Part shown: positions 8,043 through 11,577 of the stretch, piece by piece | How positions within the stretch are numbered: the stretch's first letter is position 1 | Layout: every line of letters begins with the position of its first letter | Assembly: GCA_005883365.1 (NCBI GenBank) | Contig: VAXA01000202.1 | Coordinates: forward strand, 1-11,792 | Reading direction: 5' to 3' | DNA from: Actinomycetota bacterium | GTDB lineage: Bacteria > Actinomycetota > Thermoleophilia > Gaiellales > Gaiellaceae | Length of the DNA stretch: 11,792 nucleotides | Position numbers and translations under genes: made by a program | Notes under the pieces: model-generated | What the model saw: the letters and a program-made list of their open reading frames with translations, nothing else | Databases searched by the model: none | Told to the model about the DNA's origin: nothing

Positions 8043-8876
8043 CTATTGGACTGCTGAGCGGCTGAAGACGCGGATCGACGCCGCGGTCAGGAGCAGGGCG
8101 AAGCCGCCCACGACCGCGAGGCTGAGTGCTGCCATCGTCGTCGGGTTGGTCATGCCCCAGATCGCGTGTAGGCCGCTGCCGTCGCCGCGCAGGCCGTAGC
8201 GCATGAGGGCGAGCCCGTGGGTGAGCGGGAGGAACTTCGCGAACCAGTGCAGGAAGATCGGCAGCGCGGTGATCGGGAAGAGCGCGCCGGCGAGGAACCA
8301 GGGCAGGATCGCGATCGCCGGCACCCGGGCGATGTATTCCTCCTGGCGCGGTACGCGGTTGGCCAGGATCTCCGCCGCGCCGTACATGCCGACTGTGAAG
8401 AGCAGGCCGGCGCCGACGAACCAGCCGATCCCGCCCGCGCTCGCGTGGAAGTGGATGCCGCGCGCGACGGCGACCGCCATCAGCACCCCGACCTGCAGGG
8501 CGGTGATCGCGAGCGCGACGACGAGATTTCCGAGCACGAGCAGCCCGCGCGGGATCGGCGCAGTCAGGAGCTCGCGCTGGGCGCCGCTGACCCGGTCGAC
8601 GATGACGCCGAGCCCGGCGAACATCGTGTTCAGGGGGATCAGCAGCCCGACCGTGCCGATCGCGACGTAGGACTCGTAAGCAGTGCCGGTGTGCAGCGCC
8701 GTCTTCAGTGCCGGCGCGATCACGAGCGCGAACATGATCGGCGTCAGCAGGGGGACGACGAGTTCCCGCGGCGTGCGGGCGGTCAGCTGGAAGCGCCTCC
8801 GCGCGAGCGTGGCGAGCGGGCCGACCGAGACCGGGGCGGGCCGTTGCGTGGGGATCGCGATTTCTGCGGTGGACAA
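8043..8876 (-). CDS. ABC-2 type exporter permease (DrrB-like)
   Basis: 277-aa membrane protein with a cytoplasmic N-terminus (RRRFQLTARTPRELV) and six hydrophobic segments near residues 38-58, 70-93, 109-137, 148-171, 184-206 and 248-271. SGAQRELLTAPIPR (97-110) and PLTHGLALMRYGLRG (217-231) are typical of the ABC-2/DrrB family, which exports drugs, lipids or other hydrophobic compounds with a DrrA-type ATPase. The start is TTG 8876-8874, with AGGAG 6 nt upstream. It lies 12 nt after the stop of the ATPase gene, so the two form an operon. The substrate is unknown. The operon is divergent from an ECF41-type sigma factor that probably controls it. Confidence 0.92.
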   Translation of the reverse strand: MSTAEIAIPTQRPAPVSVGPLATLARRRFQLTARTPRELVVPLLTPIMFALVIAPALKTALHTGTAYESYVAIGTVGLLIPLNTMFAGLGVIVDRVSGAQRELLTAPIPRGLLVLGNLVVALAITALQVGVLMAVAVARGIHFHASAGGIGWFVGAGLLFTVGMYGAAEILANRVPRQEEYIARVPAIAILPWFLAGALFPITALPIFLHWFAKFLPLTHGLALMRYGLRGDGSGLHAIWGMTNPTTMAALSLAVVGGFALLLTAASIRVFSRSAVQ

Positions 8877-8888
8877 GGGGTTCTCCTT

Positions 8889-9827
8889 TCAGGCTGCCGC
8901 GGCGAGCGAGTCGCCGGTCAGGCGGAGGTAGACGTCGTCGAGGGTCGGCTCGCGGGCGCTGATCGCGCCGGTGAGGCCGAGCTCGTGAATGGCCGCGATC
9001 GCGTCGCGCGAGCTGCGGTCGTGCAGCGGCAAGGTGAGCCGGGAGCCGACGGCGAACGCATCCTCGCCTGCGACGCCGCGCTCGCGGAGCGAAGCGAGTG
9101 CGGTGCCGACGTTGCCGTCGATGCGCAGCTCCACGAGCTCGCGCCCCAGTTCCGCCAGTAGCGCCTGGGGGGCGCCGAGTGCGACGATCCGCCCGGAGTG
9201 GATGATCGCCACCCGGTCGCAGAGTCGCTCCGCCTCGTCGAGATAGTGGGTGGTCAAGAGGACGGTCATCTCCGTCCTGTTGCGCAGGCTCCCGATCACC
9301 TCGAGCAGCTCGGCCCGGATGCGCGGGTCGAGACCGACGGTCGGCTCGTCGAGGAAGAGCACGCGCGGGCGCGAGACGAGCGCCCGGGCGATCTCGAGCC
9401 GGCGCCGCTCCCCGCCGCTGTAGCTTCCGGCAGGACGATCGATCAGCCCGCCGAGGCCGAGCGTGGCCGCGAGCTCCTCGATCCGAGCTGCGGCTTCGTG
9501 AGGCTCGACCGCCCAGAGCCTGCCGTGGATCTCGAGGTTGCGGCGACCCGTCAGCGAGCGGTCGACGACCGGCTCCTGGAAGACGACGCTGCTCGCGCGC
9601 CGTGCTGCGAGCGGCGCAGTCGCGACGTCATGACCGGCGAGCCGGGCGCTGCCGGACGTCGGCTCGATCGTCGTGGTCAGCATCCCGACCGTGGTCGACT
9701 TCCCGGCCCCGTTCGGGCCGAGCAGGCCGAAGACCTCACCCGCTTCGACCTCGAAATCGATGCCCTTCACGGCCTCGACGCCGCCCGGATAGGTCTTGCT
9801 CAGCTTGCTCACTTCGATCGCGTTCAT
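8889..9827 (-). CDS. ABC exporter ATP-binding protein (DrrA/CcmA-like)
   Basis: 312 aa. Walker A GPNGAGKST (37-45), Q-loop VFQEP (Q84), signature YSGGERRR (136-143), Walker B VLFLDEP (156-162), H-loop TTHYLDEAE (H194), then the DrrA-type C-terminal domain ending in TLDDVYLRLTG. The LTGRRNLEIHGRLWAV segment after the Q-loop is typical of the daunorubicin-resistance ATPase family. It energises the permease encoded 12 nt downstream. ATG 9827-9825 is preceded by AAGGGAG with a 4-nt gap. A motif TGTCACA-N16-CGTC (9905-9879, - strand) lies upstream and matches the promoter type read by ECF41 sigma factors. Drug, antibiotic or lipid export are all possible substrates; sequence does not decide. Confidence 0.93.
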   Translation of the reverse strand: MNAIEVSKLSKTYPGGVEAVKGIDFEVEAGEVFGLLGPNGAGKSTTVGMLTTTIEPTSGSARLAGHDVATAPLAARRASSVVFQEPVVDRSLTGRRNLEIHGRLWAVEPHEAAARIEELAATLGLGGLIDRPAGSYSGGERRRLEIARALVSRPRVLFLDEPTVGLDPRIRAELLEVIGSLRNRTEMTVLLTTHYLDEAERLCDRVAIIHSGRIVALGAPQALLAELGRELVELRIDGNVGTALASLRERGVAGEDAFAVGSRLTLPLHDRSSRDAIAAIHELGLTGAISAREPTLDDVYLRLTGDSLAAAA

Positions 9828-9840
9828 GACACTCCCTTCG

Positions 9841-9856
9841 GGCAGTCACAACTGCC
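9841..9856. repeat. Perfect inverted repeat between exporter and sigma genes
   Basis: GGCAGT-CACA-ACTGCC is a perfect 6-bp dyad with a 4-nt centre. It contains most of the -35 element proposed for the sigma gene and lies just upstream of the ATPase ribosome site on the other strand. It could be an operator or a leader hairpin of the exporter transcript. Confidence 0.5.
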
Positions 9857-9870
9857 GCCATTCGTTCGTC
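9844..9870 (+). promoter_or_regulatory. Candidate ECF41-type promoter of the sigma factor gene (autoregulation)
   Basis: AGTCACA (9844-9850), 16 nt, then CGTC (9867-9870). The reported ECF41/SigJ promoter is TGTCACA...CGTC (from memory), so one -35 base differs. Transcription would start near 9876, leaving a leader of about 29 nt with GGAG before ATG 9905. Confidence 0.6.
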
Positions 9871-9878
9871 AGGGAGAT

Positions 9879-9905
9879 GACGGATCGAAACGCGGAGATG
9901 TGACA
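9879..9905 (-). promoter_or_regulatory. Candidate ECF41-type promoter of the exporter operon
   Basis: On the - strand TGTCACA (9905-9899), 16 nt, then CGTC (9882-9879): a full match to the ECF41 consensus as I recall it. Its -35 overlaps the first base of the sigma gene's ATG. Transcription would start near 9873, about 45 nt before the ATPase start. Confidence 0.65.
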
Positions 9906-10768
9906 TGACCCGAAGCGACTGGCAAACCGAGGAGTTCGAGCGCAACCGCCAGCACCTCCAGGCGGTCGCGTATCGGATGCTCGGCTCGGCGAGCGAAGCC
10001 GAAGACGCCCTGCAGGAAGCCTGGCTCCGGCTCTCCCGCTCCGACACCGAGCAGGTCGCGAACCTCGCCGGCTGGCTGACGACCGTCGTCGCGCGCGTCT
10101 GTCTCGACATGCTCCGCTCCCGCCGGGCCCGCCGCGAGGACTACGTCGGCAGCTGGCTGCCCGAGCCGGTCGTCACGATCGAGAACGGCCCCGAGGACGA
10201 GGCCGTGCTCGCAGACTCGGTCGGCCTCGCGTTACTCGTCGTGCTCGACACGCTCACACCGCCCGAGCGGCTCGCCTTCGTGCTCCACGACATGTTCGGG
10301 ATGCCGTTCGACGAAATCGCACCAATCGTCGACCGCTCCGAGGCGGCAACCCGTCAGCTCGCGAGCCGGGCTCGCCGCAGGGTACGAGGAGCGGCGCCGG
10401 TCACGGATCCCGACCTGCGCGAGCAGCGCCGCGTCATCGACGCGTTCCTGGCTGCATCGCGCGCGGGCGATTTCGAGGCCTTGTTGGAGGTGCTCGATCC
10501 GAACGTGGTCTTCCGGCTCGACGCGGGCGGCGTCGCACCGCGAGCGCGGCCGCCGGTCGAAGGGGCGGAGCTGGTCGCGGCGCAGATCCTCGAGCGCGGC
10601 AGCCCCTTCGCACCCTACGCGCGGCCCGCGATCGTCAACGGCAACGCCGGCGTGATCGTCGTCCCGCATGAAACGCCGGTCGCGGTCGTCGGCTTCGTCG
10701 TCGCCGACGGCCGGATCACGGAGATCGATGTGATCGCCGACCGGGCAAAGCTCCGCCAGCTCAGGTAG
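9905..10768 (+). CDS. sigJ: ECF41-family RNA polymerase sigma factor with C-terminal SnoaL-like domain (SigJ-like)
   Basis: 287 aa. Sigma region 2 spans about 11-78 (FERNRQHLQAVAYRMLGS, then EAEDALQEAWLRL), the linker contains the ECF41 hallmark WLPEP (84-88), and sigma region 4 spans about 105-160 (LDTLTPPERLAFVLHDMFG, then PFDEIAPIVDRSEAATRQL). From about 170 to the end there is a SnoaL/NTF2-like domain, which in ECF41 factors acts as a built-in regulator in place of a separate anti-sigma factor. Two C-terminal family motifs look changed: DGGGK reads DAGGV (206-210) and NPDKL reads DRAKL (279-283). ATG 9905 has GGAG upstream. The gene is divergent from a DrrAB-like exporter rather than beside the carboxymuconolactone decarboxylase, oxidoreductase or epimerase genes usual for ECF41. 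Motifs on both strands of the gap suggest it drives itself and the exporter. Confidence 0.92.
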   Translation: MTRSDWQTEEFERNRQHLQAVAYRMLGSASEAEDALQEAWLRLSRSDTEQVANLAGWLTTVVARVCLDMLRSRRARREDYVGSWLPEPVVTIENGPEDEAVLADSVGLALLVVLDTLTPPERLAFVLHDMFGMPFDEIAPIVDRSEAATRQLASRARRRVRGAAPVTDPDLREQRRVIDAFLAASRAGDFEALLEVLDPNVVFRLDAGGVAPRARPPVEGAELVAAQILERGSPFAPYARPAIVNGNAGVIVVPHETPVAVVGFVVADGRITEIDVIADRAKLRQLR

Positions 10769-11235: not shown

Positions 11236-11577
11236 TTGGTCTCCCACTTGGCTGGCGACGTGCGGCCCGACGAGCTCGTCACCGATGTCGCGGAACGCGT
11301 AGGAGACGAGTGGCAAGTCTGCGTCGTCACGAACGGCGAAGGCGTCGTCGTGGGTCTCCTGGGCCGAGAGGCGGTGCGCGCTGCTGAACGCGTCCGGGCC
11401 GAAGACGCTATGTCGCTCGGGCCGAGCACGATCAGACCGAGCGCTCGCCGTGAGGCCATTGTCCAGCGGATGCGCGACCAGGAGCTCAGCCGCATCGTCG
11501 TGACCCGCTCCAACGGCACCCTGGTCGGAGTGTTGCGTCGTGAGGATCTGGAAGAGGGCTCTGGTGAAGTGAGCTAG
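11236..11577 (+). CDS. CBS-domain protein (small, tandem CBS pair; start uncertain or 5'-truncated)
   Basis: 113 aa. Residues about 8-50 (GDVRPDELVTDVAERV, CVVTNGEGVVVGLL) and 58-107 (AEDAMSLGPSTIRPS, IVVTRSNGTLVGVLRREDL) are two CBS motifs, which pair to bind adenine nucleotides and usually regulate a partner. The length fits a stand-alone CBS pair, but the first motif is short at its N-terminus. The start TTG 11236 has no ribosome site, and no ATG/GTG/TTG lies between it and the in-frame stop at 11167-11169. Together with the broken propeller gene ending close by on the other strand, this suggests the 5' end may have been cut by the same event. No partner gene is in view. Confidence 0.65.
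   Translation: MVSHLAGDVRPDELVTDVAERVGDEWQVCVVTNGEGVVVGLLGREAVRAAERVRAEDAMSLGPSTIRPSARREAIVQRMRDQELSRIVVTRSNGTLVGVLRREDLEEGSGEVS

Follow-up and report, generated by a model that had tools for sequence, protein, structure and literature searches.

The sigma-exporter gap and its two facing promoters

The window analysed here, that is, the whole 11,792-nucleotide stretch of contig VAXA01000202.1 (assembly GCA_005883365.1) from an Actinomycetota bacterium, carries a SigJ/ECF41-type sigma factor gene and, divergent to it, a DrrAB-type ABC exporter operon; the 77-bp gap separating the sigma gene from the ATPase gene holds the element under study, two ECF41-type promoters that face each other (Table 1). 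The sigma protein passes the SigJ subfamily model NF007214 of NCBIfam (308.4 bits against a cut-off of 271), exceeds the Pfam cut-offs for the sigma r2 and r4 domains and carries in the linker between sigma2 and sigma4 the motif WLPEP, an ECF41 linker motif (PMC3426412), which bears out the ECF41 type given to this gene in a preliminary description of the window. It also has the SnoaL-like C-terminal extension of about 100 aa that is characteristic of ECF41/SigJ, with a Pfam SnoaL_2 score of 20.2 bits that lies under the cut-off of 27, and its best solved relative is M. tuberculosis SigJ (5xe7), the alignment spanning residues 6-253. No gene for a carboxymuconolactone decarboxylase, oxidoreductase or epimerase (COE) was found beside the sigma gene of the window, whose neighbours are the ABC exporter and others; about 30% of ECF41 loci are without such a linked enzyme gene, which is hence usual and not required (PMC3426412).

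Table 1. Annotated and predicted features around the sigma-exporter gap, in window positions.
Feature	Position	Strand	Description
ABC-2 type exporter permease	8043..8876	-	277 aa, second gene of the divergent operon; PF01061 75 bits, over cut-off
ABC exporter ATPase, DrrA-like	8889..9827	-	312 aa; TIGR01188 drrA 291 bits, under cut-off 312; PF00005
Shine-Dalgarno of ATPase gene	9836-9832	-	GGGAG, before ATPase ATG
ECF41-type promoter of sigma gene	9844..9870	+	-35 (A)GTCACA 9844-9850, spacer 16, -10 CGTC 9867-9870, then A
Predicted exporter operon start	9870	-	G, pairs with last C of sigma promoter -10; leader 43 nt
Gap between both -10 elements	9871..9878		8 bp, nearly fixed feature of the pair
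Predicted sigma gene start	9879	+	G, pairs with last C of opposing -10; leader 26 nt
ECF41-type promoter of exporter operon	9879..9905	-	-35 TGTCACA 9905-9899, spacer 16, -10 CGTC 9882-9879, then A
Shine-Dalgarno of sigma gene	9894-9897	+	GGAG, before sigma ATG
SigJ/ECF41-type sigma factor	9905..10768	+	287 aa, ATG start 9905-9907, WLPEP linker motif, C-terminal SnoaL-like extension
Small CBS-domain protein	11236-11577	+	Downstream of sigma gene, same strand

A scan of the window for GTCACA-N16-CGTC returned exactly two matches, at 9845-9870 on the + strand and at 9904-9879 on the - strand, confirming with exact coordinates that two motifs with identical N16 spacing lie in the gap. Dinucleotide shuffles of the window gave 0.04 expected matches, and two or more matches occurred in 1 of 200 shuffles. 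The full genome (2.15 Mb, about 78% complete) holds three matches, where about four are expected by chance for 10 fixed bases under equal base use; the genome-wide number being at chance level, the notable thing is that two of them are placed in one gap. The odds of about 1 in 4 million per site that had been put on a chance match apply to the - strand site, which agrees at 11 of 11 positions, and not to the + strand site, which agrees at 10 of 11 (AGTCACA). The motif matches the published ECF41 promoter TGTCACA-n16-CGTC in -35, spacer and -10, and the ECF41 factors of that study likewise are sigma factors with a fused C-terminal domain (Wecke et al. 2012, PMC3426412); as expected for ECF41/SigJ, such a target promoter stands beside the sigma gene itself, and its recognition as ECF41-type holds. 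The sigma promoter points right and the exporter promoter left, each sitting between the opposite promoter and the gene of that promoter. The spacer of the exporter promoter contains the sigma Shine-Dalgarno sequence, and its -35 overlaps the sigma start codon, as described before, by one base.

Spacing of the pair in other loci

We collected 80 loci (numbered with the prefix L) by their sigma protein alone, blind to promoters and counting L018, which has no upstream DNA, and scanned up to 420 nt upstream under a strict rule (-35 GTCAC plus any base, spacer of 15-17, -10 CGTC; looser variants uncounted); the gap between the two -10 elements of a face-to-face pair is referred to as d. A face-to-face pair was present in 18 of the 80 loci, with d=8 in 15 (L001, L002, L003, L007, L010, L022, L025, L026, L029, L034, L037, L045, L056, L058 and L062), d=9 in three (L006, L014 and L023) and none below 8, and a back-to-back pair in seven (L004, L005, L013, L016, L019, L024 and L033), with gaps of 11, 14 or 19. 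L001-L003 have the same sigma-exporter pair as the window, with ATPases 84-90% identical to the window ATPase (for L003 over 77 aa only), and keep both motifs and the 16-nt spacer at the same spacing in these orthologous gaps; a lack of such conservation would, by the preliminary description, have refuted its reading. L026, L034 and L037, in which the SigJ-like gene is divergent to a monomeric isocitrate dehydrogenase (IDH) gene, have in addition to the d=8 pair further copies of the sigma-side motif upstream, which face that one partner promoter at d=43, 105 or 141.

Pattern surveys covered Actinomycetota genomes. With a free gap of 0-30 bp, the facing pattern was found at 9 sites in 9 of 396 genomes of the phylum and at 24 sites among 394 genomes of another class, 23 of which carried it, and a third pattern search in 39 genomes gave four sites, all already found. 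The distinct sites (n=31, two being common to both sets) comprise 21 with d=8, spread over six family codes, two with d=9, four with d=11, one with d=20 and three with d=24. A SigJ-like gene adjoins the pair in 29 of the 30 sites examined as loci, and the remaining site (L084) lies at a contig end. Facing pairs with a gap of 31-60 bp were found at 0 sites in 197 genomes, which hold 13 pairs with a gap of 0-30, 12 of them at d=8. A chance match is ruled out by the two matches against 0.04 expected in the window, by the recurrence of the pair elsewhere and by the reversed-pattern controls of the free-gap searches, which gave 0 matches.

The back-to-back pattern occurred in the same 394 genomes at 19 sites with nine different gaps (1, 8, 11, 12, 14, 18, 22, 25 and 26), gap 8 being found in five sites, all of one genus code. 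A SigJ-like start adjoins 16 of these 19 sites; in L119 the sigma hit lies at another place in the locus, and L120 and L124 have none. With varied gaps back to back and nearly constant gaps face to face, the spacing of this motif is loosely set in the first arrangement and tightly set in the second. In L121 and L125 the back-to-back gap is 1 bp, the promoters lie near the starts, and both genes may be nearly leaderless.

The spacing was followed on a tree of 68 sigma rows, 45 of them face-to-face (L101 and L103 were left out, the sigma reading being too short; elsewhere L084 was left out of sigma-based counts, and L089 as the window itself). Among the 45 face-to-face rows the fewest changes are at least 9 for d and 14 for the partner family (41 labelled rows), and within the d=8 rows there are 9 partner changes (31 labelled rows); for the gap of back-to-back pairs, 10 changes are needed in 23 rows. 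The two motifs adjoin the sigma gene and keep a nearly fixed spacing with changing partners.

Predicted transcription starts and a model of shared initiation

Transcription starts were predicted from 52 promoters, single or back-to-back (L002, L003, L093 and L097 were left out as identical elements). A pyrimidine-purine step ending at position 9 after CGTC is present in 32 of the 52, compared with 5-19 for the remaining positions between 3 and 12; it is stronger in the main clade, with 20 of 26, than in the other, with 12 of 26. These counts suggest that ECF41-type transcription starts at the ninth base after CGTC. The same step was found in facing pairs in 7 of 8 promoters at d=11, in 5 of 6 at d=24 and in 1 of 2 at d=20. 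Both ECF41 starts that have been published are G; for the two mapped genes, the 5' untranslated regions are given as 31 and 32 in a table of that paper but as 22/23 bp in its text, a 9-unit discrepancy that in our own reading fits if the table counts from the -10 (PMC3426412).

In d=8 pairs position 9 falls on the initial G of the GACG opposite, and the T preceding it pairs with the A that usually follows CGTC. From the predicted starts, the core of each promoter in the window would lie within the first 27 nt transcribed from the other, in agreement with the earlier view that each is inside the opposite early transcribed region, and the geometry implies that polymerase positions on the element would overlap. 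An antisense overlap of both RNAs at d=8 was rejected, the predicted starts being 9 bp apart and the RNAs diverging. Three d=24 loci (L105, L106 and L107) share one genus code and have otherwise different sequence; with starts at position 9, the 5' ends of their two RNAs would share several bases of overlap, unlike those at d=8. The base after CGTC is a purine in 62 of 62 cases in d=8 pairs and in 40 of 52 other promoters (Fisher p ~4e-5); this contrast was set aside as evidence, the figures within the main clade being 62/62 and 24/26, and it may be clade history.

The inverted repeat CGTCA-N6-TGACG could be the operator of a dimeric regulator instead of two -10 elements, and as a near-perfect 16-bp palindrome it is kept in d=8 loci. 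Its six central bases, however, are not conserved, which led us to reject it, and CGTCA is not confined to facing pairs (A in 75% of 8 single and 73% of 22 back-to-back promoters). Moreover, the half-sites hold 16 bp to GTCACA, needless for a separate operator, and loci with d=9, 11 and 24 share the promoter layout, so that we regard an operator as highly improbable.

We consider it likely that the 60-bp stretch is an ECF41-specific bidirectional promoter that is used by one polymerase at a time and splits the sigma output between self-amplification and target. A holoenzyme containing the neighbouring SigJ/ECF41-type sigma would bind the 60-bp element in either orientation, and the sigma gene would be transcribed rightward (autoactivation) or the DrrAB-type exporter leftward. 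With the 8-bp gap, each start base would coincide with the final base pair of the -10 facing it, and the reverse complement of CGTCA, TGACG, would provide a T(-1)G(+1) initiator. Since both promoters would need the same melted bubble, a single initiation would be possible at any time; active sigma would be divided between its own synthesis and the exporter, and the positive loop would be damped by a limiter encoded in the DNA. We infer the start sites, the sharing of the bubble, exclusion, autoactivation and damping from the sequence, and the mutually exclusive switch of the preliminary description stands at this same level; in its main points that interpretation is supported and strengthened.

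A single active site, the other one being a decoy or a relic, is an unlikely explanation of the pair. The + site is without the first T of TGTCACA, and silent ECF41 motif matches are known, three tested ones being inactive (PMC3426412); but only 63% of 38 sigma-side promoters have T just before GTCACA, so that a missing T is common, and both sites with the exact spacer are present in L001-L003 and in loci otherwise diverged in DNA.

Several observations weigh against the model of shared initiation, the three inactive motif matches among them. By the strict scan the pair is absent in 55 of the 80 sigma-selected loci, of which 10 have a single sigma-strand motif and 45 no motif. Spacings of 9, 11, 20 and 24 also occur beside d=8, and the position-9 step is present in only 2 of 8 promoters at d=9. 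For the relatives carrying the pair the ECF41 label is less sure than for the window sigma, many being without exact WLPEP: the motif was found in loose form in 29 of 120 readings of relatives, and exactly in only 4 d=8 loci. The E. coli bidirectional promoters that were tested, furthermore, had a basal activity too low for polymerases to compete (PMC12825309). A serious rival, which we hold to be possible if rather doubtful, is that compactness is all there is, two ordinary ECF41 promoters being packed to the limit set by leader and ribosome-binding site, with a gap of no regulatory meaning and exclusion as a side effect. In 40 of 47 face-to-face loci the -35 of the partner promoter ends -5 to +2 nt from the estimated sigma start, so that a leader constraint, not the other promoter, could set d; the partner spacer also holds the sigma Shine-Dalgarno sequence, and 8 bp is about the shortest gap that would leave the predicted start uncovered by the opposing -10. 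Compactness alone, however, does not sit easily with back-to-back loci, where the distance of the sigma promoter varies, GTCACA beginning 32 to 77 nt upstream of the start codon, nor with the partner side, where, in believable partner readings, the distance from the sigma-side -35 to the partner start ranges between about 12 and 128 nt, yet d is constant at 8. Gaps of 31-60, where plain divergent promoters might be expected, are absent in the 197 genomes.

Common descent also bears on the constancy of d. In 29 distinct d=8 elements compared at 38 non-motif positions (duplicates and short readings were left out), identity was 34% in the 143 pairs with sigma proteins 40-50% identical, where composition predicts 27%, and 47% where the sigma proteins are 50-70% identical. 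Only in the most distant pairs, therefore, is the DNA between the motifs nearly randomised, and these still keep the spacing. Parsimony gives 10 gains or losses of d=8, of which well-supported branches force only 2, and the conservation of d=8 is therefore due in part to descent.

Partner genes and comparison with known promoters

The divergent partner varies between facing loci, as judged from the Pfam families of one to three representatives per cluster. Among the partners are transport proteins (ABC (DrrA-like), MFS and MMPL) and, besides these, CMD, NmrA/SDR, FAD_binding_4, DUF1059, monomeric IDH, hemerythrin, glyoxalase, PNPOx and polyketide cyclase, and within this sample beta-lactamase-family hydrolases and alpha/beta hydrolases were found in back-to-back loci only. 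No believable reading of the partner was obtained in L095, L099, L103 and L104, and that of L105 is poor and labelled solely by its clustering with L106 and L107. A short protein of about 80 aa, assigned by Pfam to DUF1059 in L081, is the partner at d=8 in L081, L082, L100 and L102, beside distant sigma relatives (40-48% identity).

ABC, MFS and MMPL exporters, of three superfamilies unrelated to one another, are divergent to SigJ-like genes with ECF41-type motifs before both; the exporter-partner loci are L001-L003, L024, L025 and L083; L007, L010, L022 and L058; and L092, L093, L097 and L098. L024 keeps a related exporter and both motifs despite its back-to-back geometry. In L004 (2-2830) and L005 (3-2884) an MMPL gene separates the sigma gene from the ATPase gene, the three being on the minus strand, as though it had been placed within the exporter operon, and the ATPases are 73-77% identical to the window exporter ATPase over the part compared. 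Efflux may be widely included among the targets of SigJ-like factors.

The argE/argCBH and bioA/bioBFCD regions of E. coli have facing promoters between divergent genes, read by sigma-70, with an internal repressor operator. The pairs described here are like them in their facing promoters and differ in having no conserved centre. Overlapping divergent promoters also form a switch in the conjugation genes of pLS20, but there with DNA looping, according to the title of that report (PMC4207663). In the bidirectional promoters of E. coli, one short stretch produces divergent RNAs and holds polymerase in one orientation at a time, with start sites mostly 18 bp apart and also 10 or 23; activation one way can repress the other, interference lowers noise, and exclusion is seen only with strong activity in one of the directions (Warman et al. 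2026, PMC12825309). That set includes an efflux pump and its regulator, acrA/acrR, which resembles the exporter and sigma gene here. Unlike those promoters, which share a symmetric -10 (PMC12825309), the window has two separate -10 elements 8 bp apart, an ECF -35 and -10 of its own for each direction and predicted starts 9 bp apart, and the sigma that would read them is one of the products. For ECF41, the motif was reported, among 55 divergent <ECF< >COE> loci, before the ECF gene in 36 and before the COE gene in 41, and a word search of the main text of that study for the interlocked geometry and the fixed gap found none ('bidirectional' 0, 'face' 0; PMC3426412).

With these loci the predicted ECF41-type targets go beyond redox-type enzymes and take in exporters from three superfamilies that are unrelated, and the signature GTCACA-N16-CGTC-N8-GACG-N16-TGTGAC finds such modules in raw genomes. 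ECF41 factors are without an obvious anti-sigma gene (PMC3426412). A self-activating sigma needs a brake, and a promoter pair that forces a choice between sigma and target would, if true, be a brake that resides in DNA spacing alone; the 8-bp rule, with its shared start and -10 base pair, is directly testable. We tentatively propose, as a reading that falls somewhat short of an even chance, that such pairs would form a distinct ECF41-type class in which two complete promoters are interlocked, the last base pair of each -10 being the start of the other, and which would serve as a portable self-limiting cassette for exporters of the three superfamilies and for many enzymes, the choice between sigma and effector capping the loop and fixing the ratio of regulator to effector.
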